Assembly (NCBI RefSeq): GCF_007644105.1
Contig: NZ_VFAC01000007.1
Span: 62,001 to 126,000, forward strand
Length of the DNA: 64,000 nt
Direction: 5' to 3'
Source of the DNA: Elioraea rosea
GTDB taxonomy: Bacteria; Pseudomonadota; Alphaproteobacteria; Acetobacterales; Acetobacteraceae
Shown here one piece after another: positions 57,157-64,000 of this stretch. The notes beneath the pieces were generated by a model. The model saw nothing but the letters and a program-made list of their open reading frames with translations, was not told the origin of the DNA and searched no databases. Position 1 is the first letter of the stretch. Every line of letters starts with the position of its first letter. The translations under genes were made by a program, and so were the position numbers.

Positions 57157-57233
57157 GTCCCCGTAGCTCAGCAGGATAGAGCACAGGATTCCTAATCCTG
57201 GGGCCGGAGGTTCGAATCCTCTCGGGGACGCCA
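57157..57233 (+). tRNA. tRNA-Arg (anticodon CCT)
   Basis: The acceptor stem GTCCCCG (57157-57163) pairs with CGGGGAC (57223-57229), followed by discriminator G and an encoded CCA (57231-57233). The anticodon loop TTCCTAA places CCT at 57190-57194 in the loop, giving tRNA-Arg for AGG. D-loop and T-loop (GGTTCGAATCC) sequences are typical. It lies 35 bp after pip. Confidence 0.93.
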
Positions 57234-57253: not shown

Positions 57254-57673
57254 ATGAGGTGTGGCCTGGTGACCCGAACCGCATCGTGCAGCTGCGGCCA
57301 GCTCCGCATCGAGGTCGAGGGTGAGCCGCGGGGCGTCGGGGTGTGCCACTGCCTCGCCTGCCAGCGCCGCACAGGCAGCGTGTTCGCCGCGCTCGCGAGC
57401 TTCGCCCCACCCTGGCTGGTGCACGGCAAGGCCACCGAATACGTGCGGCAGGGAGACGGCGGGGCGCGCTTCACCTTCCGGTTCTGTCCTGTGTGCGGAA
57501 CGACCCTCTTTCACACGGAGGAGGGACGCGAGGCGCGATCCGTCGCGGTCGCCGTCGGCGCCTTCGCCGATCCGGGGTTTCCGCCGCCGACCGTGTCCGT
57601 CTACGAGTGCAGGCGGCATTCCTGGGTGCAGCTGCCGGAAGGCATCCGGACCTACGACAAGGACCCCGACTGA
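57254..57673 (+). CDS. GFA family (glutathione-dependent formaldehyde-activating-like) protein
   Basis: A 139-residue zinc-binding protein of the GFA/CENP-V fold. Cysteine pairs CSCG (about residues 12-15), CHCLAC (31-36) and FCPVCGTTLFH (75-85) bind zinc. Members are often of unknown activity; glutathione-linked formaldehyde adduct formation is the name-giving example. The ATG at 57254 is used, just after the tRNA. Confidence 0.85.
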   Translation: MRCGLVTRTASCSCGQLRIEVEGEPRGVGVCHCLACQRRTGSVFAALASFAPPWLVHGKATEYVRQGDGGARFTFRFCPVCGTTLFHTEEGREARSVAVAVGAFADPGFPPPTVSVYECRRHSWVQLPEGIRTYDKDPD

Positions 57674-57703: not shown

Positions 57704-59080
57704 TCAGCCCAGCGCCGCGTCCGCCTCGCGCCTGAGCGCCCACAGCGCGCTTCCCTCCGGTGCGACGACATCGTCCGCCGTCACCAGCGCGTCCTTCGCC
57801 ACCGGTCGTGCCAGCGTCAGCCCCACCGCCATGTAGTAGGGAAGCGGATTGCCGCCGCGCACGGGCTTCGCGGGCAGGAGTGCGGCGTCGAGCCCCGGCA
57901 CGGCATGGCGTGTGCCGACGATCTCGAGCGCGTGGCCAGCCGGCAGGTCGCGATCCGCCCGCGCGACGAGGTCGACGCGCTGGCGGTACTCGGCATCGAC
58001 CATCGAATGGCCGAGCCGTGCCGCCGCCATGACTGTGATCGGCGCCTCGACGCCGAGCAGGTGCGAGGGGTTATAGATCAGCGCCCGCGAGCGGTCGCGC
58101 GACACGGGGATGCCCTTGCCGGCGAACAGCTCTCCGGTGGCGCGGTCGGCAAGCGAAACGACGACGAAGACGCCGCCGGCGAAGCTCGCCTCGTCGGGAC
58201 GGCGGAGGCAGTTGAACACATCGACCACGCCCTCGCGGTCGAGCACGCCGCCCTCGGCGCGCGTGGCGTATAGGTCGGGCAGCTCGATCGTCCGCGCCAT
58301 CGGCGCATGGAAGACGTCCCTGTCCGGCATCAGCCCGGTCGCGTTGCTCACGAGCGACATCTCGCAGGCGTCCGGCACCGTCCGCTGCGGCAGGGCAGCC
58401 AGAGCCTTGGCGCGTGCGGCCATCGTCCCTGCCACCTCGCCCTTGCCGAGGTGCCAGTGCTCTGCGAGCTGCGGAGCCGCGACACTTTCGGACAGCCAGC
58501 GCGTCACGCCGGTGGCCGGATCGAAGACGAAATCATACTCGCTGCTCTTGCCCGCCGCGACGATGGGCAGCCCGAGCGTGCGCGCCCAGGAGACGAGCCC
58601 GATGAGAAGCGAGGGCTGGTCCCCGTCCACCAGCGTCCAGGCGAGGCCGGCCTTGCGCGCCCGCGCCGCGAGCGCGGGGCCGACCACGCATTCCGCCTCC
58701 TTCGAGACCATCGTGACGCCGATGCCTGCCTCCAGCGCGGCGAGCGCGTGGCGCACCGCGGCCTCGGCATGGCCCGTTGCCTCGACGACATGATCGAGCG
58801 GGAGGGAGAGGAGGTCGTCGATCCGTTCGCAGAGCGCGATCTCTCCGGCATCGAGCGCAGAGCGTGCCTCGGCGGCGCTGGCGCAGCGGCGATGCGGCGT
58901 GTCCACGGCTGCGAGCTTGGAGGCGACGCGCTCGAGGTCGCGGTCCAGCGCCGCGACGATGCGGAGCCCAGCAGTGCGCCGCGCCTGCGCGATCAGCGAG
59001 AGGCCGAACTCCCCCGCGCCTAGCAGGGCTGCGCGGACGGGCCGTTCTGCGGCTGCGCGGAACAGGGTCTGGAACTGCAT
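57704..59080 (-). CDS. NAD-binding oxidoreductase with C-terminal SAF domain
   Basis: A 458-residue protein. The N-terminal Rossmann domain begins RAALLGAGEFGLSLIAQA (GxGxxG at residues 21-26), and a homoserine-dehydrogenase-like catalytic domain spans the middle. The C-terminal SAF-type region runs from about residue 370 (HSMVDAEYRQRVDLVARADRDLPAGH). The layout resembles the predicted homoserine-dehydrogenase-like group with a SAF domain. It is divergent from dctP with a shared sequence between them, suggesting a role in the same catabolic pathway. The substrate is unknown. An upstream in-frame extension to 60193 is rejected as shadow of dctP. Confidence 0.85.
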   Translation of the reverse strand: MQFQTLFRAAAERPVRAALLGAGEFGLSLIAQARRTAGLRIVAALDRDLERVASKLAAVDTPHRRCASAAEARSALDAGEIALCERIDDLLSLPLDHVVEATGHAEAAVRHALAALEAGIGVTMVSKEAECVVGPALAARARKAGLAWTLVDGDQPSLLIGLVSWARTLGLPIVAAGKSSEYDFVFDPATGVTRWLSESVAAPQLAEHWHLGKGEVAGTMAARAKALAALPQRTVPDACEMSLVSNATGLMPDRDVFHAPMARTIELPDLYATRAEGGVLDREGVVDVFNCLRRPDEASFAGGVFVVVSLADRATGELFAGKGIPVSRDRSRALIYNPSHLLGVEAPITVMAAARLGHSMVDAEYRQRVDLVARADRDLPAGHALEIVGTRHAVPGLDAALLPAKPVRGGNPLPYYMAVGLTLARPVAKDALVTADDVVAPEGSALWALRREADAALG

Positions 59081-59121
59081 GGCGGGCGTTTCTCTCGGCT
59101 CATTGCATTTGCGATGGTGTT

Positions 59122-59137
59122 CTGCATACAGTGCACA
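59122..59137. promoter_or_regulatory. candidate GntR operator before dctP
   Basis: CTGCATACAGTGCACA lies in the 90-bp region between the SAF oxidoreductase and dctP. Its ten-base palindrome CTGCATACAG is the exact reverse complement of CTGTATGCAG at 63419-63428 near gntR, and both are followed by TGCACA. This shared 16-base element is the best evidence that one regulator serves both places. Confidence 0.6.
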
Positions 59138-59170
59138 CAATGCCGGAAAGGGCAAATGGGGAGAAACGCC

Positions 59171-60181
59171 ATGACCAAGCTCCGCCGCCGCAGCCTCGTC
59201 GCTGCCAGCCTTGCCGCCACCAGCCTCGCCGCACCGTGGATCGGTGGCACGGCCCGAGCCCAGGCGACGCGGCTCCGCTTCGCCCACCCGCATCCGGAGA
59301 GCGACAGCTGGCACAAGGCCGCTCTGCTCTTCGCCGAGGAGGTGCGCGCCAAGAGCGGCGGCGCACTCACCGTCCAGGTCATCTCGGGCGGCGCGGCCGG
59401 CAGCGACCCGACGACGATCAACGCCGCGCGTGGCGGCACGCTCGACATCGTTCTGACAGGCAACCCGTTCTTCACCGGCCTCGCACCGAAGCTGAACGTG
59501 CTCGACCTGCCCTTCCTGTTCAGTGACCGGGTGCATGTGGCGCGCGTACTCGACGGCGAGATCGGCAACGAGCTCGCCAAGGAGCTCGAGCCCGCCAACC
59601 TCGCCGTGCTCGGCTTCTGGGACATCGGCTTCCGCAACCTGACGAACTCGCGCCGCGCGGTGCAGGGCCCGGCCGACATCCGGGGGCTGAAGATCCGCAC
59701 CACGCCGAACCCAGCGCATATCAAGGCCTTCCAGCTTCTCGGCGCCACGCCCGCACCGATGCCGTTCACCGAGCTCTTCACCGCGCTCGAGACCCGCGCG
59801 GTCGACGGCCAGGAGAACCCGACGACGCTCATCCTCAATGCCCGGTTCTTCGAGGTTCAGCGCCACCTGAGCCTGACGCGGCACGCCTACACCGCCGGCA
59901 TCCTCGCGATGTCCTCGCAGAGGCTCGCCGCACTTCCTGCCGCCCAGCAGGAGGTGCTGCGCGGCGTCGCCGCCTCGATCACGCCGCGGCAGAGGCGGAT
60001 GAACGAGGAGGGCGAGGGCACCGCAGTGGCGGAGCTGAAGGCGAAGGGCATGGCCGTCGTCGAGCAGCCTGATCGCGACGCGATGGCGAAGATCGTCATG
60101 GCAGAGACGCGGCAGGATTATGTCGGCCGGTTCGGCTCCGCCGTGCTCGACCGCATCGTCGCTGCCGGCCCGACTGCCTGA
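59171..60181 (+). CDS. dctP: TRAP transporter substrate-binding protein DctP
   Basis: Periplasmic solute receptor of a tripartite ATP-independent transporter, 336 residues. ATG 59171 starts MTKLRRRSLVAASLAATSLA, a signal peptide whose RRRSLV pattern resembles a Tat motif, cut after about ARAQ. The TRAP landmarks RFAHPHPESDSWHKAALLFAEEV and GLKIRTTPNPAHIKAFQLLGATPAPMPFTELFTAL are present, the latter holding the conserved Arg for carboxylate binding. A carboxylate-type substrate is expected. A cyclase-family gene follows after two bases. Confidence 0.92.
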   Translation: MTKLRRRSLVAASLAATSLAAPWIGGTARAQATRLRFAHPHPESDSWHKAALLFAEEVRAKSGGALTVQVISGGAAGSDPTTINAARGGTLDIVLTGNPFFTGLAPKLNVLDLPFLFSDRVHVARVLDGEIGNELAKELEPANLAVLGFWDIGFRNLTNSRRAVQGPADIRGLKIRTTPNPAHIKAFQLLGATPAPMPFTELFTALETRAVDGQENPTTLILNARFFEVQRHLSLTRHAYTAGILAMSSQRLAALPAAQQEVLRGVAASITPRQRRMNEEGEGTAVAELKAKGMAVVEQPDRDAMAKIVMAETRQDYVGRFGSAVLDRIVAAGPTA

Positions 60182-60183
60182 GC

Positions 60184-60870
60184 ATGGGTGCATCCGGCAT
60201 GCGCATCGTCGACCTGACGATGCCGATCGCGGACCATTTCCGCTGGAAGACGGTTCTCTCGGTCACCGGCAACATCAAGGCGGGTGACCAGTTCCGCATC
60301 TCCCGCCTCGATGCCGCCTGTCATGGCTTCTCGCATGTCGACGCGCAGGCGCACATCCTCGCCGATGCGCCGACGATCGAGGCCACACCGCTCGAGCGCG
60401 TCGTCGGCGCCTGCCGGGTTCTCGACCTGCGCGACGTGCGCGCGGAGGAGGAGATCGGGCCCGAGCGTCTCGCCGCCGCAGACCCGGGCGGCGCGGAGGG
60501 GGAGATCCTGCTTCTCTCGAGCGGGTGGGACAGGCATGAGGACTGGAACACGGCAGGCTTCTGGAAGCGCGCGCCGTGGCTGAACCGCGCAGCCGCCGAG
60601 TGGCTCGTCTCGCGGAGGCCCTCTGCTGTTGCGTTCGATTTCCCGCAGGACTACCCGATCCGGCTTCTGCTCGACGGCGTGACGGTTCCGTTCGACCAGC
60701 ACGTGACGCATGACACGCTGCTTCGCGGCGGGGTGACACTGATCGAGTATCTCGTGAACACGACCGCGCTGTCCGAACGGCGCGTGCTGCTCTCCGCCGC
60801 GCCGCTGAAGATCCCGGGGGCGGATGGCGCGCCCGCCCGCGTCTACGCCATCGAGGGCCTGTCGGTCTGA
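60184..60870 (+). CDS. cyclase-family (kynurenine formamidase-like) metal hydrolase
   Basis: A 228-residue hydrolase of the cyclase (PF04199) family. The metal motif HGFSHVDAQAH at 47-57 fits H-x3-H-x-D-x3-H with His47, His51, Asp53 and His57. The family segment LLLSSGWDRH is near 115. Possible reactions include lactone or amide hydrolysis of the transported acid. It sits inside the TRAP operon between dctP and dctQ and starts two bases after dctP, so it should act on the imported substrate or product. Confidence 0.85.
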   Translation: MGASGMRIVDLTMPIADHFRWKTVLSVTGNIKAGDQFRISRLDAACHGFSHVDAQAHILADAPTIEATPLERVVGACRVLDLRDVRAEEEIGPERLAAADPGGAEGEILLLSSGWDRHEDWNTAGFWKRAPWLNRAAAEWLVSRRPSAVAFDFPQDYPIRLLLDGVTVPFDQHVTHDTLLRGGVTLIEYLVNTTALSERRVLLSAAPLKIPGADGAPARVYAIEGLSV

Positions 60871-61376
60871 TGCTCGCGCGCCTTGCCGGCCTCGTGCTGA
60901 CGGCGGCGGAGTGGCTTCTGGCACTGGCGCTGCTCGCAATGCTCGGCATGGTCTTCGGCAACGTGGTGCTGCGCTACGGCTTCAATTCAGGCATCACGGT
61001 GACGGAGGAGATCTCGCGCGTCCTGTTCGTTTGGATCACCTTCCTCGGCGCCGTGGCTGTCGCGCGCAGGCGGGGCCATCTCGGCTTCGACCTCGCGGTG
61101 CGCCTGCTGCCGCGGCGCGGCCGCGTCGTATGCCGTGCGCTCGCTGCGGCGCTGACGCTTCTCTGCTGCCTCGTCTTCCTCCGCGGTGCCTGGACGCAGA
61201 CGGCGATGAACATGACCAATGCCGCGCCCGTCTCCGGCCTTCCGATGGGCTACGCCTATGCGGCAGCGGTGGTCGGCGCCGCGGGCCTCGCCCTTTTTGC
61301 GCTCGCCGACCTGGTCGAGGCGCTGAGGGGCCGCGAGCCGCCGCTTCCGACGCACGAGGCGGAACCGGGCGCATGA
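60870..61376 (+). CDS. dctQ: TRAP transporter small permease DctQ
   Basis: A 168-residue membrane protein with four hydrophobic helices (about 5-38, 47-65, 85-105 and 125-150). It has the DctQ pattern LRYGFNSGITVTEEISRVLFVWITFLGAV. It overlaps the cyclase stop by one base and dctM by four. Confidence 0.92.
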   Translation: MLARLAGLVLTAAEWLLALALLAMLGMVFGNVVLRYGFNSGITVTEEISRVLFVWITFLGAVAVARRRGHLGFDLAVRLLPRRGRVVCRALAAALTLLCCLVFLRGAWTQTAMNMTNAAPVSGLPMGYAYAAAVVGAAGLALFALADLVEALRGREPPLPTHEAEPGA

Positions 61377-62650
61377 CGCTCCTCGTCTTCGTTGCCTCGC
61401 TGCTTGGCGCGATGGCGCTCGGCATGCCGGTGGCGTTCGCGCTGCTCGTCTCGTCCCTGGTGATGATGCAGTTCACCGGCGGCATCGATCCGCAGACGGT
61501 GGCGCTGCAGATGATCAACGCCGCCGACAGCTTCGCGCTGCTGGCGATTCCGTTCTTCCTCCTCGCGGGCGAGGCGATGAGCGCGGGCGGGCTGTCGCGC
61601 CGCCTGGTCGCCTTCGCCCTGGCGCTCGTTGGCCACAGGCGCGGCGGTCTCGGCTACGTCGCGATCATCGCCGCCGTGCTGCTCTCGAGCCTCAGCGGCT
61701 CTGCCGTGGCCGACACCGCGGCGCTCGCCTCGGTGCTGATGCCGATGATGCGCCGAGCAGGCTACGACACGGGGCGTGCGGCGGGGCTGATGGCGGCGGG
61801 CGGCATCATCGGGCCGGTGATCCCGCCATCGATCGCGTTCATCGTGTTCGGCGTCGCGGGCAATGTCTCCATCACCTCGCTGTTCCTCGCCGGCGTCGCG
61901 CCAGGCCTGTTGATGGGCGCCGCACTTGCCGTCACCTGGTCATTCGTCGCGCGCAAGGAGAAGGTCGAGATGCTGCCGCGTGCGACCTGGCGCGAAACCG
62001 CCGCGGCGCTACGCGACGGGCTGCTCGCGCTCGGCCTTCCGGTGATCATCGTCCTCGGCCTCAAGTTCGGCATCTTCACGCCGACAGAAGCGGGCGTGGT
62101 GGCGGCGGTCTACGCGCTCGCGGTCGGCATCTTCGGCTATCGCGAGCTTGCGCTCTCCGCCGTGCCGCATGTCCTCGTCTCGGCCATCCGAACCACTGCC
62201 TCGGTGATGCTGCTCGTCGCCGCCGCGTCCGTCTCCGCCTACCTGATCGCGATCGCCGACATCCCTGCGGAGATGCGCGCGCTCCTCGCGCCGTTCGAGG
62301 GCAGCCGCACCACGCTGCTCGTGGCGATGATGGTGCTCGTGCTCGTCGCCGGTACGGCGCTCGACCTGATCCCGACCATCCTGATCCTGACGCCGGTGCT
62401 GATGCCGATCGTCCGTTCGGCCGGGATCGACCCGGTCTATTTCGGCGTGCTTTTCGTGATGAACACCTCGATCGGGCTAATCACGCCGCCTGTCGGCACG
62501 GTGCTGAACGTCGCCTCCGCCGTCGGCCGTGTGCCGCTCGGGCGTGTCACGGTCGCGGTGCTGCCGTTCCTTGCGTCGCAGGTCGCTGTCCTGTTCGCGC
62601 TCGTATTCGTGCCCGAGCTCGTCACGGTCCCGCTGCGGTGGCTGCGGTAA
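61373..62650 (+). CDS. dctM: TRAP transporter large permease DctM
   Basis: The 425-residue ion-transporter component with 12 or so helices. It starts MTLLVFVASLLGAMALGMPVAFALL. The family signatures SLSGSAVADTAALASVLMPMM and AGGIIGPVIPPSIAFIVFG are visible, and LITPPVGTVLN near the end. It overlaps dctQ (ATGA). The regulator gene on the opposite strand converges 20 bp downstream. Confidence 0.94.
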   Translation: MTLLVFVASLLGAMALGMPVAFALLVSSLVMMQFTGGIDPQTVALQMINAADSFALLAIPFFLLAGEAMSAGGLSRRLVAFALALVGHRRGGLGYVAIIAAVLLSSLSGSAVADTAALASVLMPMMRRAGYDTGRAAGLMAAGGIIGPVIPPSIAFIVFGVAGNVSITSLFLAGVAPGLLMGAALAVTWSFVARKEKVEMLPRATWRETAAALRDGLLALGLPVIIVLGLKFGIFTPTEAGVVAAVYALAVGIFGYRELALSAVPHVLVSAIRTTASVMLLVAAASVSAYLIAIADIPAEMRALLAPFEGSRTTLLVAMMVLVLVAGTALDLIPTILILTPVLMPIVRSAGIDPVYFGVLFVMNTSIGLITPPVGTVLNVASAVGRVPLGRVTVAVLPFLASQVAVLFALVFVPELVTVPLRWLR

Positions 62651-62670
62651 GGCGTTGCGGCCCGTCGGTA

Positions 62671-63381
62671 TCAGAGGCTGTCGCGCACCCGTTCGATCGC
62701 CATGTCGAGATGGCGGCCGATCACCTCCGCGGCGGCCTCACCGTCGCGCCGCGCGATGGCGGCAGCCATCTCCTCGTGTTCGGCGACGGCGGCGGCCCAT
62801 TTCTCCGGCCCCTCATGCCCGATGAACCGGATGCGCCGCATGCGCGACTGGAGCTGGGTATGCAGCGTCGCAAGGACGGCATTGCCCGAGAGGCGCGCGA
62901 TCGCCGAATGGATTTCCTGGTTGAGCTTGAAGTAGGCGAGGCGGTCGCGCGCTGCGTAGCGGTCCATCATCGCCGCATGCAGCGCGCCGATCTCGGCGAT
63001 GGCTGCGGAGGAGCCCTCGGCGCAGATCTGGCGGGCAGCGAGCTGCTCGAGCGCCTTGACGACCGCGAGGCTGTCGCAGAGGTCCTTCAGCGTGAGCGTG
63101 CGGACGACGGCACCGCGGGCCGGGACGATCTCGACGAGGCCTTCGCTCGCAAGCGTCTTGATCGCCTCGCGCAATGGCGTGCGCGAGACCCCGAGAAGCT
63201 GCCCGAGCGCGACCTCGTTCACGCGGCGACCAGGCGCGAGGTGGCCCTCGATGATCATGTCGCGCACGCGGCTCGCCACCTCGTCATGCAGCGTCCGCCG
63301 CGCGATCGGCAGCACGGGCGCATCGTTGCCCGAGGAGGGCGATGTGCCTGCGCGCGGGCCCGTCAATCCTGGTGTCTCCAT
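62671..63381 (-). CDS. GntR/FadR (FCD) family transcriptional regulator
   Basis: A 236-residue regulator. The winged helix-turn-helix is ARRTLHDEVASRVRDMIIEGHLAPGRRVNEVALGQLLGVSRTPLREAIKTLASEG, about residues 27-81. The C-terminal FCD domain (about 95-225) has the FKLNQEIHSAIARLSGN pattern with metal-binding histidines. It probably controls the neighbouring TRAP, oxidoreductase and PdxA genes. The start at 63381 gives METPGLTGPRAG. Confidence 0.92.
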   Translation of the reverse strand: METPGLTGPRAGTSPSSGNDAPVLPIARRTLHDEVASRVRDMIIEGHLAPGRRVNEVALGQLLGVSRTPLREAIKTLASEGLVEIVPARGAVVRTLTLKDLCDSLAVVKALEQLAARQICAEGSSAAIAEIGALHAAMMDRYAARDRLAYFKLNQEIHSAIARLSGNAVLATLHTQLQSRMRRIRFIGHEGPEKWAAAVAEHEEMAAAIARRDGEAAAEVIGRHLDMAIERVRDSL

Positions 63382-63418
63382 GCTGGGAGCCTAGCCTGCC
63401 GACGGAGTCGGGACAATG

Positions 63419-63434
63419 CTGTATGCAGTGCACA
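63419..63434. promoter_or_regulatory. candidate GntR operator before gntR/pdxA
   Basis: CTGTATGCAGTGCACA contains a ten-base palindrome-like core matching the site at 59122-59137. It is 38 bp before gntR (minus strand) and 67 bp before the pdxA-family gene, so it could control both divergent genes, including autoregulation. Confidence 0.6.
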
Positions 63435-63500: not shown

Positions 63501-64000
63501 ATGGCCGACGCCAAGCACACGCCGACGATCGCCTTCGCCATGGGCGACGCATCCGGCATCGGATCGGAACTGATGGCCAAGGTCCTCGCCGATGCCGACA
63601 TCGCCGCAGCGGCCCGCTACATCGTCATCGGCGATTCCCGGGTTCTCGCACGCGGCGCGAGCATCGTCGGCCTGCCCGTCACCCTTCCCGTCGTGGGACC
63701 CGACGCCACGCTGCCGCGCGATCGTTCCGTGTTCGTCGATCTCGGCCATCTCGACCCGAAGGACGCGCCTTTCGGCACGGTGAACCTCGCAAGCGGCCGT
63801 TTCGCGCTTGAGAACTTTCGCACCGCGCTGCTCCTCGGCCTCGCAGGCGAGGCCGATGCGGTTGCCTTCACGCCGTTCAACAAGGCGGCGATGCGCCTCG
63901 CCCACCCGCCCTACGAGGACGAGATCGGCTTCACTGCGGGCGTGCTCGGGTTCGACGGCAAGGCCAAGGAGTTCAACATCCTCGAGGGGCTGTGGAACGC
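63501..64000 (+). CDS. PdxA/PdxA2 family 4-phosphoacid dehydrogenase (partial)
   Basis: Starts at ATG 63501 and runs off the window end after 166 codons. The family motif FAMGDASGIGSELMAKVL is at residues 11-28, and FTPFNKAAMRLA, with the conserved Lys, near 124-135. PdxA proper makes pyridoxal precursor by oxidising 4-phosphohydroxythreonine; PdxA2 paralogues oxidise phosphorylated four-carbon acids in catabolism. Neighbourhood (GntR, TRAP, SAF dehydrogenase, cyclase) favours the catabolic PdxA2 type, by inference. Confidence 0.88.
   Translation, partial: MADAKHTPTIAFAMGDASGIGSELMAKVLADADIAAAARYIVIGDSRVLARGASIVGLPVTLPVVGPDATLPRDRSVFVDLGHLDPKDAPFGTVNLASGRFALENFRTALLLGLAGEADAVAFTPFNKAAMRLAHPPYEDEIGFTAGVLGFDGKAKEFNILEGLWN

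Follow-up and report, generated by a model that had tools for sequence, protein, structure and literature searches.

Gene content around the two sites

The window, a stretch of 64,000 nucleotides of Elioraea rosea contig NZ_VFAC01000007.1, carried the following genes and candidate operators near its right end.

57704..59080, minus strand: DRL, a DXR-II-like NAD(P)-dependent oxidoreductase of the DRL family, 458 aa (DRL_cat PF21135, 2e-24; NAD_binding_3)
59119..59137, plus strand: candidate operator 1 in the DRL/dctP divergent gap; core 59122-59131, third half-site TGCACA 59132-59137
59171..60181, plus strand: DctP, TRAP solute-binding protein (SBP), 336 aa (PF03480, 2e-82)
60184..60870, plus strand: cyclase-family metal-dependent hydrolase, 228 aa (PF04199, 8e-20; PDB 1r61, a metal-dependent hydrolase, 1.4e-13)
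60870..61376, plus strand: DctQ, TRAP small permease (PF04290; YiaM-like, under cut-off)
61373..62650, plus strand: DctM, TRAP large permease (PF06808, 1e-119; YiaN-like, 473 bits against a cut-off of 800)
62671..63381, minus strand: FadR-subfamily (GntR + FCD) regulator, 236 aa (PF00392 and PF07729; orthologues adjoin the same motif)
63416..63434, plus strand: candidate operator 2 in the gntR/pdxA divergent gap; core 63419-63428, third half-site TGCACA 63429-63434
63501..64000, plus strand, continuing past the window end: PdxA-like dehydrogenase, 354 aa in full (PF04166, 1e-84)

The TRAP importer, cyclase-family hydrolase and PdxA-family enzyme named in a preliminary description of this DNA were borne out by Pfam; its "SAF-domain oxidoreductase" was indeed an oxidoreductase, refined here to a DXR-II-like member of the DRL family. 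PF03480, PF04290 and PF06808 together made up a complete DctPQM TRAP transporter. Beyond the window, pdxA headed eight co-directional genes (PdxA, TctC, TctB, TctA, TctC2, amidohydrolase, ILVD/EDD dehydratase, and DapA-like), the seven further genes covering about 9 kb to a position equivalent to 72372 of the window; this run is presumably transcribed as one operon. It encoded a TTT (TctABC) transporter, as judged from PF01970, PF07331 and PF03401, while the amidohydrolase was lactonase-like and the ILVD/EDD protein resembled sugar-acid (arabinonate) dehydratases. No NCBIfam equivalog cut-off was passed by the cluster proteins scanned, a set that comprised those other than the Tct proteins.

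The only PDB sequences found for the DRL protein were 3upl and 3upy (7e-38), which we take to be the Brucella DRL structures; the homology spanned the NAD-binding and catalytic domains. Residues diagnostic of DXR-II are, in Brucella numbering, Gly121, Thr229, His250, Arg320, and Val351 (PMC3847144). Within aligned blocks, Gly121, Arg320 and Val351 were replaced by Ala108, Asn337 and Arg368, respectively, and Thr229 by Asp237 according to an ungapped extension two residues beyond the aligned block; the one DXR-II-typical residue retained was His250 (His258 here). DRL is thus DXR-II-like, though probably not DXR-II itself, and at four of the five positions its residues fitted DLO1/DLO2, the clade beside DXR-II without the diagnostic residues, whose members were uncharacterised as of 2013 (PMC3847144). 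A role as the sole MEP enzyme of the genome was rejected because a true DXR-I was found in the same genome and four of the five DXR-II residues were absent. The Roseomonas marmotae gene that by position encodes the oxidoreductase was labelled homoserine dehydrogenase in public records.

The PdxA-like protein scored below cut-off with both TIGR00557, the vitamin-B6 PdxA model (253.8 bits; cut-off, 290.35), and NF002891, the PdxA2 model (196 bits; cut-off, 583). K274, N283 and R292 of E. coli PdxA are, we assume, the phosphate-binding Lys, Asn and Arg; in the PdxA-like protein, the Lys was retained and the other two were replaced by Thr and Ile. The equivalents of N283 and R292 were Thr and Ile/Leu/Val in all 78 proteins readable by pattern among 80 related loci, and N and R were retained in both further PdxA paralogues that this genome encodes. 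A vitamin-B6 function was rejected for the PdxA-like protein, canonical and PdxA2-type copies being located elsewhere in the genome; by the residue evidence, the name vitamin-B6 PdxA given to the enzymes of such loci in public records is probably wrong.

The shared site and its conservation with gntR

The preliminary description had placed the ten-mers CTGCATACAG at 59122 and CTGTATGCAG at 63419, each followed by TGCACA, in divergent gaps. Both were present there, in the 90-bp gap between DRL (minus strand) and dctP (plus strand) and in the 119-bp gap between gntR (minus strand) and pdxA (plus strand), and on the plus strand they had the same orientation, with TGCACA toward dctP or pdxA. Because of the near-palindromic core, calling the second site an exact reverse complement or a same-strand copy with Y and R exchanged amounts to the same statement. 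The TGCACA was refined to a third half-site of a FadR/FCD-type motif, which in full (ATnCTGYATRCAGnATACW) combines a palindrome with this additional half-site on one side only. Sites in the position table, from which the two of the window were left out, were chosen by exact core; therefore, the core columns are invariant by construction, and evidential weight lies with the Y/R positions and the flanks alone. The GT-N2-AC centre (TGTATACA form) agreed with operators of the FadR subfamily, which are palindromes with a GT-N2/3-AC centre and for which extra boxes 7–12 nt from the centre have been described (PMC4494728), and the regulator itself had the domains of that subfamily, both above cut-off (PF00392, 3e-17; PF07729, 2.5e-24).

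With one mismatch allowed, the two sites were the only matches to the ten-mer in the window, a count that is not significant by itself (2 versus 1.47 expected; 42 of 100 shuffles reached 2). In windows resampled by a first-order Markov model, as in all resampling controls here, exact ten-mers appeared at 0.03 per window, with none of 60 windows reaching 2, and the 16-mer CTGYATRCAGTGCACA appeared in none of 60. The 15-mer TGYATRCAGTGCACA occurred at exactly two places in the 4.49-Mb genome, both at this locus; two mismatches added four places, versus two for the reversed control pattern. CTGYATRCAG was found at nine places, and the seven besides the two sites were all CTGCATGCAG and all inside long open frames (weak evidence; the genome is 70% G+C). 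No convincing additional regulon member was recognised among the genome-wide matches to TGYATRCAGTGCACA and CTGYATRCAG, and no terminator was found in either gap.

Among the 80 loci, 53 were hand-picked for a GntR of at least 49% identity whose gene diverges from pdxA, either as its immediate neighbour or separated from it by DRL. The other 27 had a distant GntR (40–43%, all Bradyrhizobium), none nearby, or one placed elsewhere, and the sole motif holders among them were L136 and L169 (54% and 49% GntR elsewhere, respectively). After removal of L112, L114 and L117 as duplicates of family genomes, 67 loci were compared, which are related to each other and so are not independent samples. CTGYATRCAG was exact in 52 of the 67 distinct gaps between an orthologous gntR and the divergent pdxA-like gene (resampled gaps: mean 0.12, maximum 2, 500 resamples) and the octamer TGYATRCA was present in 63 (resampled gaps: mean 1.43, maximum 6). 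Outside these gaps the ten-mer was seen four times in 1,212,348 bases, always before DRL or dctP. Fifteen gaps lacked the exact ten-mer and four lacked the octamer (L085, L129, L148 and L188), including both betaproteobacterial ones. Within the Acetobacteraceae loci, the motif was in 15 of 17 gaps, and five further sites in 507 kb were all upstream of DRL/dctP (four) or gntR (one); among 120 permuted palindromes, no other occurred in as many as three of these gaps.

In the 150 bp upstream of genes, the exact motif preceded 14 of 21 pdxA, 14 of 20 gntR, 3 of 18 DRL and 1 of 6 dctP, the last count omitting L071, the dctP start of which was miscalled; genes of the relatives came from a simple codon-score caller, and some starts were wrong (dctP of L071, cyclase and GntR). 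The corresponding regions of 255 genes without BLAST match to cluster proteins were free of the motif (0/255), even with one mismatch. Nor was it present in four DRL clusters, all from one genus, that have a different GntR (27% identity in L072 and L086; below the search threshold in L073 and L079). Comparison of the loci showed that the site tracks the orthologous GntR regulator, lying before gntR/pdxA and, in several genomes, before DRL and dctP. Being conserved across loci, the site cannot be held to have arisen by chance, an origin rejected by the conservation, the resampling and the unmatched-gene controls.

Regulation and putative substrate

Conservation of the site with the regulator lent strong support to the shared-site, GntR-controlled regulon of the preliminary description. 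With a probability of roughly three in four, the GntR/FCD protein whose gene lies between the two sites uses both as operators and through them controls uptake and breakdown of a small sugar acid. By family analogy, a GntR dimer would bind the palindrome, the third half-site would recruit or stabilise further protein, and GntR would repress both divergent operons until a small carboxylate of the pathway binds the FCD domain. It is highly improbable that GntR binds elsewhere and that the sites serve another regulator or represent a promoter element shared by chance. The proximity of gntR is circumstantial and a sigma-70 promoter scan was silent in both gaps, but the motif follows the GntR orthologue, is absent where GntR is replaced, and has the GT-N2-AC form of the FadR subfamily.

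GntR might also control only gntR and pdxA, the DRL/dctP site being weak or a relic. DRL and dctP were divergent in three loci, with the site exact in L009 (the window genome) and L071 (same genus) and with one mismatch in L074, and at the remaining loci DRL was in other arrangements. However, the one-mismatch site before DRL/dctP of genome G011 (L074) lay on a contig other than that of gntR, genome G238 had such sites before DRL (L076, other contig) and dctP (L077, same contig), and resampling gave P of 0.003–0.02 for the one-mismatch sites of these two genomes; moreover, the exact motif preceded DRL in L078 and L080, and DRL directly adjoins the motif-bearing gap in five loci (Bosea and related). 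This restricted control is thus considered improbable.

As to the substrate, the nearest solved relatives of DctP were 4p47, 4p9k, 4pdh, and 4pdd. In a related set of TRAP SBPs, some were solved with sugar acids, erythronate or pantoate, mostly co-purified (PMC11668362); that set comprises relatives of another SBP, IseP, which overlap those of DctP. The best solved relatives, around 4P47 and 7BBR, shared with DctP the carboxylate ligands of 4P47 (R155, R176 and N216 in DctP, matched by offset, the DctP model having a mean pLDDT of only 62.5), whereas identity in structural alignment was about 25–30%. Genes linked at related loci encoded a TIM barrel, a dihydroxyacetone kinase, a DUF1537 kinase, and a GarR-like dehydrogenase. 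Linked genes and SBP relatives point to a lactone or small sugar acid, which may have four carbons, and the hydroxy or lactone acid of the preliminary description fits the enzymes and SBP relatives. The oxidoreductase was present in 30 and dihydroxyacetone kinase in 19 of the 67 loci, and both in none. A dihydroxyacetone kinase step was rejected for this genome, where a Dak1 match was absent, so that the rhizobial dihydroxyacetone route is not directly transferable.

The TRAP and TTT transporters would bring in such a sugar acid or lactone, most likely a C4 tetronate, and the lactonase-like and cyclase-family hydrolases would open an imported lactone. The PdxA-like enzyme, with its 4-phosphate pocket lost, would oxidise, and probably also decarboxylate, an unphosphorylated 3-hydroxy acid, the products being handled by the DXR-II-like oxidoreductase, the sugar-acid dehydratase, and the DapA-like lyase. 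We tentatively propose, at less than even odds, a sugar-acid pathway spread through Alphaproteobacteria and some Gammaproteobacteria, in which a PdxA-type enzyme acts on unphosphorylated acids and a DXR-II-like enzyme occupies the dihydroxyacetone kinase slot.

It is rather unlikely that real GntR operators serve another substrate, such as a branched, pantoate-like hydroxy acid or, as for the PdxA relative TphB, an aromatic dihydrodiol acid. Pantoate is found besides erythronate among the ligands of the same, mostly co-purified SBP set, the PdxA-like enzyme lacks phosphate-binding residues and has the terephthalate dihydrodiol dehydrogenase 4aty as a distant PDB match, and terephthalate-binding proteins are among the TctC relatives; nevertheless, a ring-hydroxylating oxygenase was absent from the genes of the focal cluster, and the DUF1537, dihydroxyacetone kinase, TIM-barrel, sugar-acid dehydratase, and lactonase-like genes of this and sister clusters favour sugar acids.

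Relation to known systems

From two sites, the analysis arrived at a candidate regulon for which the operator, the orthologue group of the regulator and a conserved set of core enzymes are defined, and which places the uncharacterised DLO relatives of DXR-II in a possible pathway context. If the proposed pathway with a DXR-II-like enzyme in the kinase slot is real, DLO enzymes would have a catabolic role and the DXR-II of the MEP pathway would perhaps derive from a sugar-acid enzyme. Sinorhizobium meliloti 1021 carries the core regulon without the oxidoreductase, at an orthologous pSymB locus that has the motif. No description of the regulon turned up in the papers searched, supplements apart (SAF domain/PdxA/GntR/TTT, DUF1537/PdxA2, and Sinorhizobium pdxA/dihydroxyacetone kinase), nor was a paper found joining GntR to TGCATACAG.

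DRL resembles the DXR-II/DLO family, typified by Brucella DRL, in its homologous domains and the shared His250. The PdxA-like enzyme belongs to the same protein family as PdxA2 (D-threonate-4-phosphate dehydrogenase), has kept the three His that we take to be metal ligands, and lies in a sugar-acid gene context. It differs from the PdxA2 plus DUF1537 kinase system in that two phosphate-binding residues are lost and the focal cluster is without the kinase; a separate PdxA2-type gene lies near a DUF1537-type match on contig C12 of the same genome. With the regulons that Suvorova et al. 2015 describe for the FadR subfamily, the present one shares a single site in the divergon of regulator and structural genes and an extra half-site near the centre; however, pdxA is absent from the main text of that study, in which no group was matched to the present regulon (PMC4494728). 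Atu1419 of Agrobacterium fabrum, an FCD GntR with the operator ATGTATACAT, is similar in domain composition, in having sites before its own and a neighbouring operon, and in the TGTATACA core with GT-N2-AC spacing, whereas its region encodes hydroxycinnamate degradation (PMC7797058) and thus other pathway genes; in the Elioraea regulon, the core is flanked by C/G (CTGYATRCAG) and accompanied by the conserved one-sided third half-site.

Two predicted operators and their genes

The ten-mers reported in the preliminary description, both of the form CTGYATRCAG, were recovered at their two positions, followed each time by TGCACA. Site 1 occupies a 90-bp gap between the minus-strand gene of a DXR-II-like (DRL) oxidoreductase and dctP, which encodes a TRAP solute-binding protein (SBP); site 2 lies between gntR, encoding a FadR-subfamily (GntR plus FCD) regulator, and a pdxA-like gene.

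57157–57233: tRNA-Arg(CCT), immediately upstream of the cluster
57254–57673: small ORF between this tRNA and the cluster, presumably GFA-like
59122–59131: core of site 1, between DRL (minus strand) and dctP (plus strand)
63419–63428: core of site 2, between gntR (minus strand) and pdxA (plus strand)
Downstream of pdxA, in order: TctC, TctB, TctA, second TctC, amidohydrolase, ILVD/EDD dehydratase, DapA-like protein

The pdxA run extends past the window edge, to about 9 kb. Exact matches to the ten-mer were rare (0.03 per resampled window), the one-mismatch count in the window was unremarkable, and the 15-mer TGYATRCAGTGCACA had exactly two copies in the whole 4.49-Mb genome, which comprises 95 contigs, the window covering positions 62001–126000 of contig C67.

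Conservation of the motif with GntR

On sequence comparison, conservation of the motif, and not its count in the window, is the strong test against chance. The oxidoreductase and GntR were searched in 299 genomes of the family, with matches in 138 and 39, respectively, at E ≤ 1e-30, and 28 stretches were taken, 26 from other genomes and two from other contigs of the E. rosea genome. Three genomes of this family, Acetobacteraceae, have sequence in common with named contigs of Roseomonas mucosa, Roseomonas sp. E05, and Acetobacteraceae bacterium AT-5844. A GntR orthologue was divergent from pdxA in 17 family loci (window's own included), and CTGYATRCAG occurred in 15 of these gaps. Resampled gaps averaged 0.02, and of 119 alternative palindromes with the letters permuted, none occurred in more than 2 of the 17. 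Five further sites were found in 507 kb of family loci, all upstream of DRL/dctP or gntR. From a PdxA-alignment scan of genome contigs, the best 80 of at least 595 pattern matches were kept as named loci; among these, an orthologous GntR was divergent in 53, with the exact ten-mer in 40 of the 53 gaps. After removal of three duplicates, the family and scanned loci formed a set of 67, with the ten-mer in 52 gaps and the octamer TGYATRCA in 63, the loci being related and the counts hence not independent trials. The octamer was missing from four gaps of this set despite a qualifying GntR (L085, L129, L148, and L188), which counts against a link between motif and regulator. Outside the gaps, four ten-mers were found in 1.21 Mb of the 67 loci, all before DRL or dctP, and none, even with one mismatch allowed, in the upstream regions of 255 genes that had no match to cluster proteins. 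Three gaps (L164, L171, and L177) carried two ten-mer copies separated by 53 bp and may represent double-site divergons.

The motif was absent where the GntR differed, namely in L072, L073, L079, and L086 (one genus) and with Bradyrhizobium proteins at 40–43%, but present in L136, the single locus of Bradyrhizobium whose GntR is at 54%, where one copy immediately precedes the gene of that regulator; these findings tie the motif to the regulator. The four loci of one genus represent a sister cluster (DRL 70%, PdxA 47–48%, Tct, and DapA), with another regulator beside DRL (an FCD GntR in L072) and without a CTGYATRCAG operator.

As for site 1, the exact motif was present in the equivalent DRL|dctP gap of a same-genus relative (L071). 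In relative G011, DRL and dctP are on a contig other than that of gntR and their common gap holds a one-mismatch motif, and in relative G238 such motifs precede DRL (on another contig) and dctP (on that of gntR), with resampling P of 0.003–0.02 for these sites. Exact sites precede DRL in L078 and L080, and DRL directly borders the motif-bearing gap in L124, L132, L156 (Bosea), L152, and L165. Over the full set of called genes, an exact site stood before just 3 of 18 DRL starts, because elsewhere DRL lies inside operons or under another GntR. It is very probable that GntR binds the two predicted sites; the regulon would be new and include two poorly annotated enzyme groups.

Enzymes, transporters, and possible substrate class

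The genome encodes three PdxA homologues. The two outside the cluster score above the family cut-off and retain Asn and Arg, while the cluster copy has Thr and Ile, at positions that, together with Lys, contact the phosphate of the substrate in E. coli PdxA. Lys, Thr, and Ile/Leu/Val were found in all 78 proteins that could be read with a simple pattern (absent from L111 and L112) among the best 80 of at least 595 PdxA loci. A separate PdxA2-type gene on contig C12 (86447–87451, L195) keeps Asn and Arg; a DUF1537-type match (88158–88547, L110) is close to it, and a second, stronger one lies elsewhere on C12 (199258–199938, L109).

In rhizobia, the same operator precedes pdxA-tctCBA (tct encoding a TTT transporter), a xylose-isomerase-like TIM barrel, and dihydroxyacetone kinase. 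With matches of at least 40% identity over half the query in stretches of at most 20 kb, DRL was found in 30 of the 67 loci, the kinase in 19, and both in none (hypergeometric 7e-7, inflated by relatedness of the loci). Ensifer, Brucella, Mesorhizobium, and Rhizobium each have both types in the same slot after tctA (e.g. L144 versus L155, L173 versus L171), and Salinicola lacks the kinase but has DRL and a TIM barrel of about 52% identity. In three Microvirga loci and L088, DRL has a DUF1537 kinase as its neighbour, relatives of this kinase being present in 6 of 67 loci (L186 by Pfam, others by tblastn); GarR-like dehydrogenases occur in 10 of 67, with TIGR01505 as best model, below cut-off, and the L-threonate dehydrogenase model weaker. 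Tetronate pathways include TIM-barrel isomerases, DUF1537 kinases, and LtnD. Since tetronate-type genes accompany related clusters, a C4 sugar acid would be preferred as substrate, by guilt by association. In the part of the pdxA run beyond the window edge, the sole NCBIfam match of the amidohydrolase was L-fucono-1,5-lactonase (79.6 bits, cut-off 400), and the dehydratase scored 856 with the L-arabinonate dehydratase model, slightly below its cut-off of 882.

The TRAP SBP retains three carboxylate-binding residues listed for 4P47 (matched by offset). SBPs with pantoate or erythronate presumably include 4p9k, 4pdh, and 4pdd. In the IseP paper, SBPs overlapping the match list of the TRAP SBP are reported with KDG (7BBR), galacturonate (4N8Y), and glucuronate (4X8R), and further ones with pantoate or erythronate; most of these, it cautions, were co-purified (PMC11668362).

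Five positions (Gly121, Thr229, His250, Arg320, and Val351) are named as separating DXR-II from the DXR-II-like oxidoreductase (DLO) families (PMC3847144). The oxidoreductase has Ala, Asn, and Arg in place of Gly121, Arg320, and Val351, keeps His250, and, by ungapped extension, has Asp at the Thr229 position. Because of these departures and a DXR-I also encoded in the genome, the oxidoreductase is most likely a member of the DLO group, whose proteins are uncharacterised. A second DRL-family paralogue, 35% identical (C9:20456–21745, L096), carries Arg at position 320 and, judged from an alignment, Ser at position 229.

A sugar acid as substrate class is moderately supported, and the overall explanation, with most weight on its regulatory side, is given a probability of roughly three in four.

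Form of the predicted operator

The consensus ATnCTGYATRCAGnATACW was derived from 43 distinct sites (window's own two excluded), which were chosen by exact core, so that its evidence is limited to the Y/R columns and flanks. Positions -2/-1 carry A and T in 38 and 39 of the 43 sites, mirrored at +12/+13, where A and T occur in 34 and 35. On the pdxA side, A/G-C-W at +14 to +16, which has no counterpart on the other side, completes a direct repeat with a 7-bp period, its unit being the half-site ATRCA. The TGCACA noted earlier spells this third half-site in its minority form, with G at +12 and C at +13 in 7 of 43 sites each. In FadR-subfamily sites, GT and AC are separated by 2 or 3 nt, and additional boxes at 7–12 nt from the centre are on record (PMC4494728). 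The FCD protein Atu1419 binds ATGTATACAT (PMC7797058), and this Atu1419-type palindrome is matched in at least two of three Salinicola loci (L137 and L180), where it stands at the operator position in place of CTGYATRCAG.
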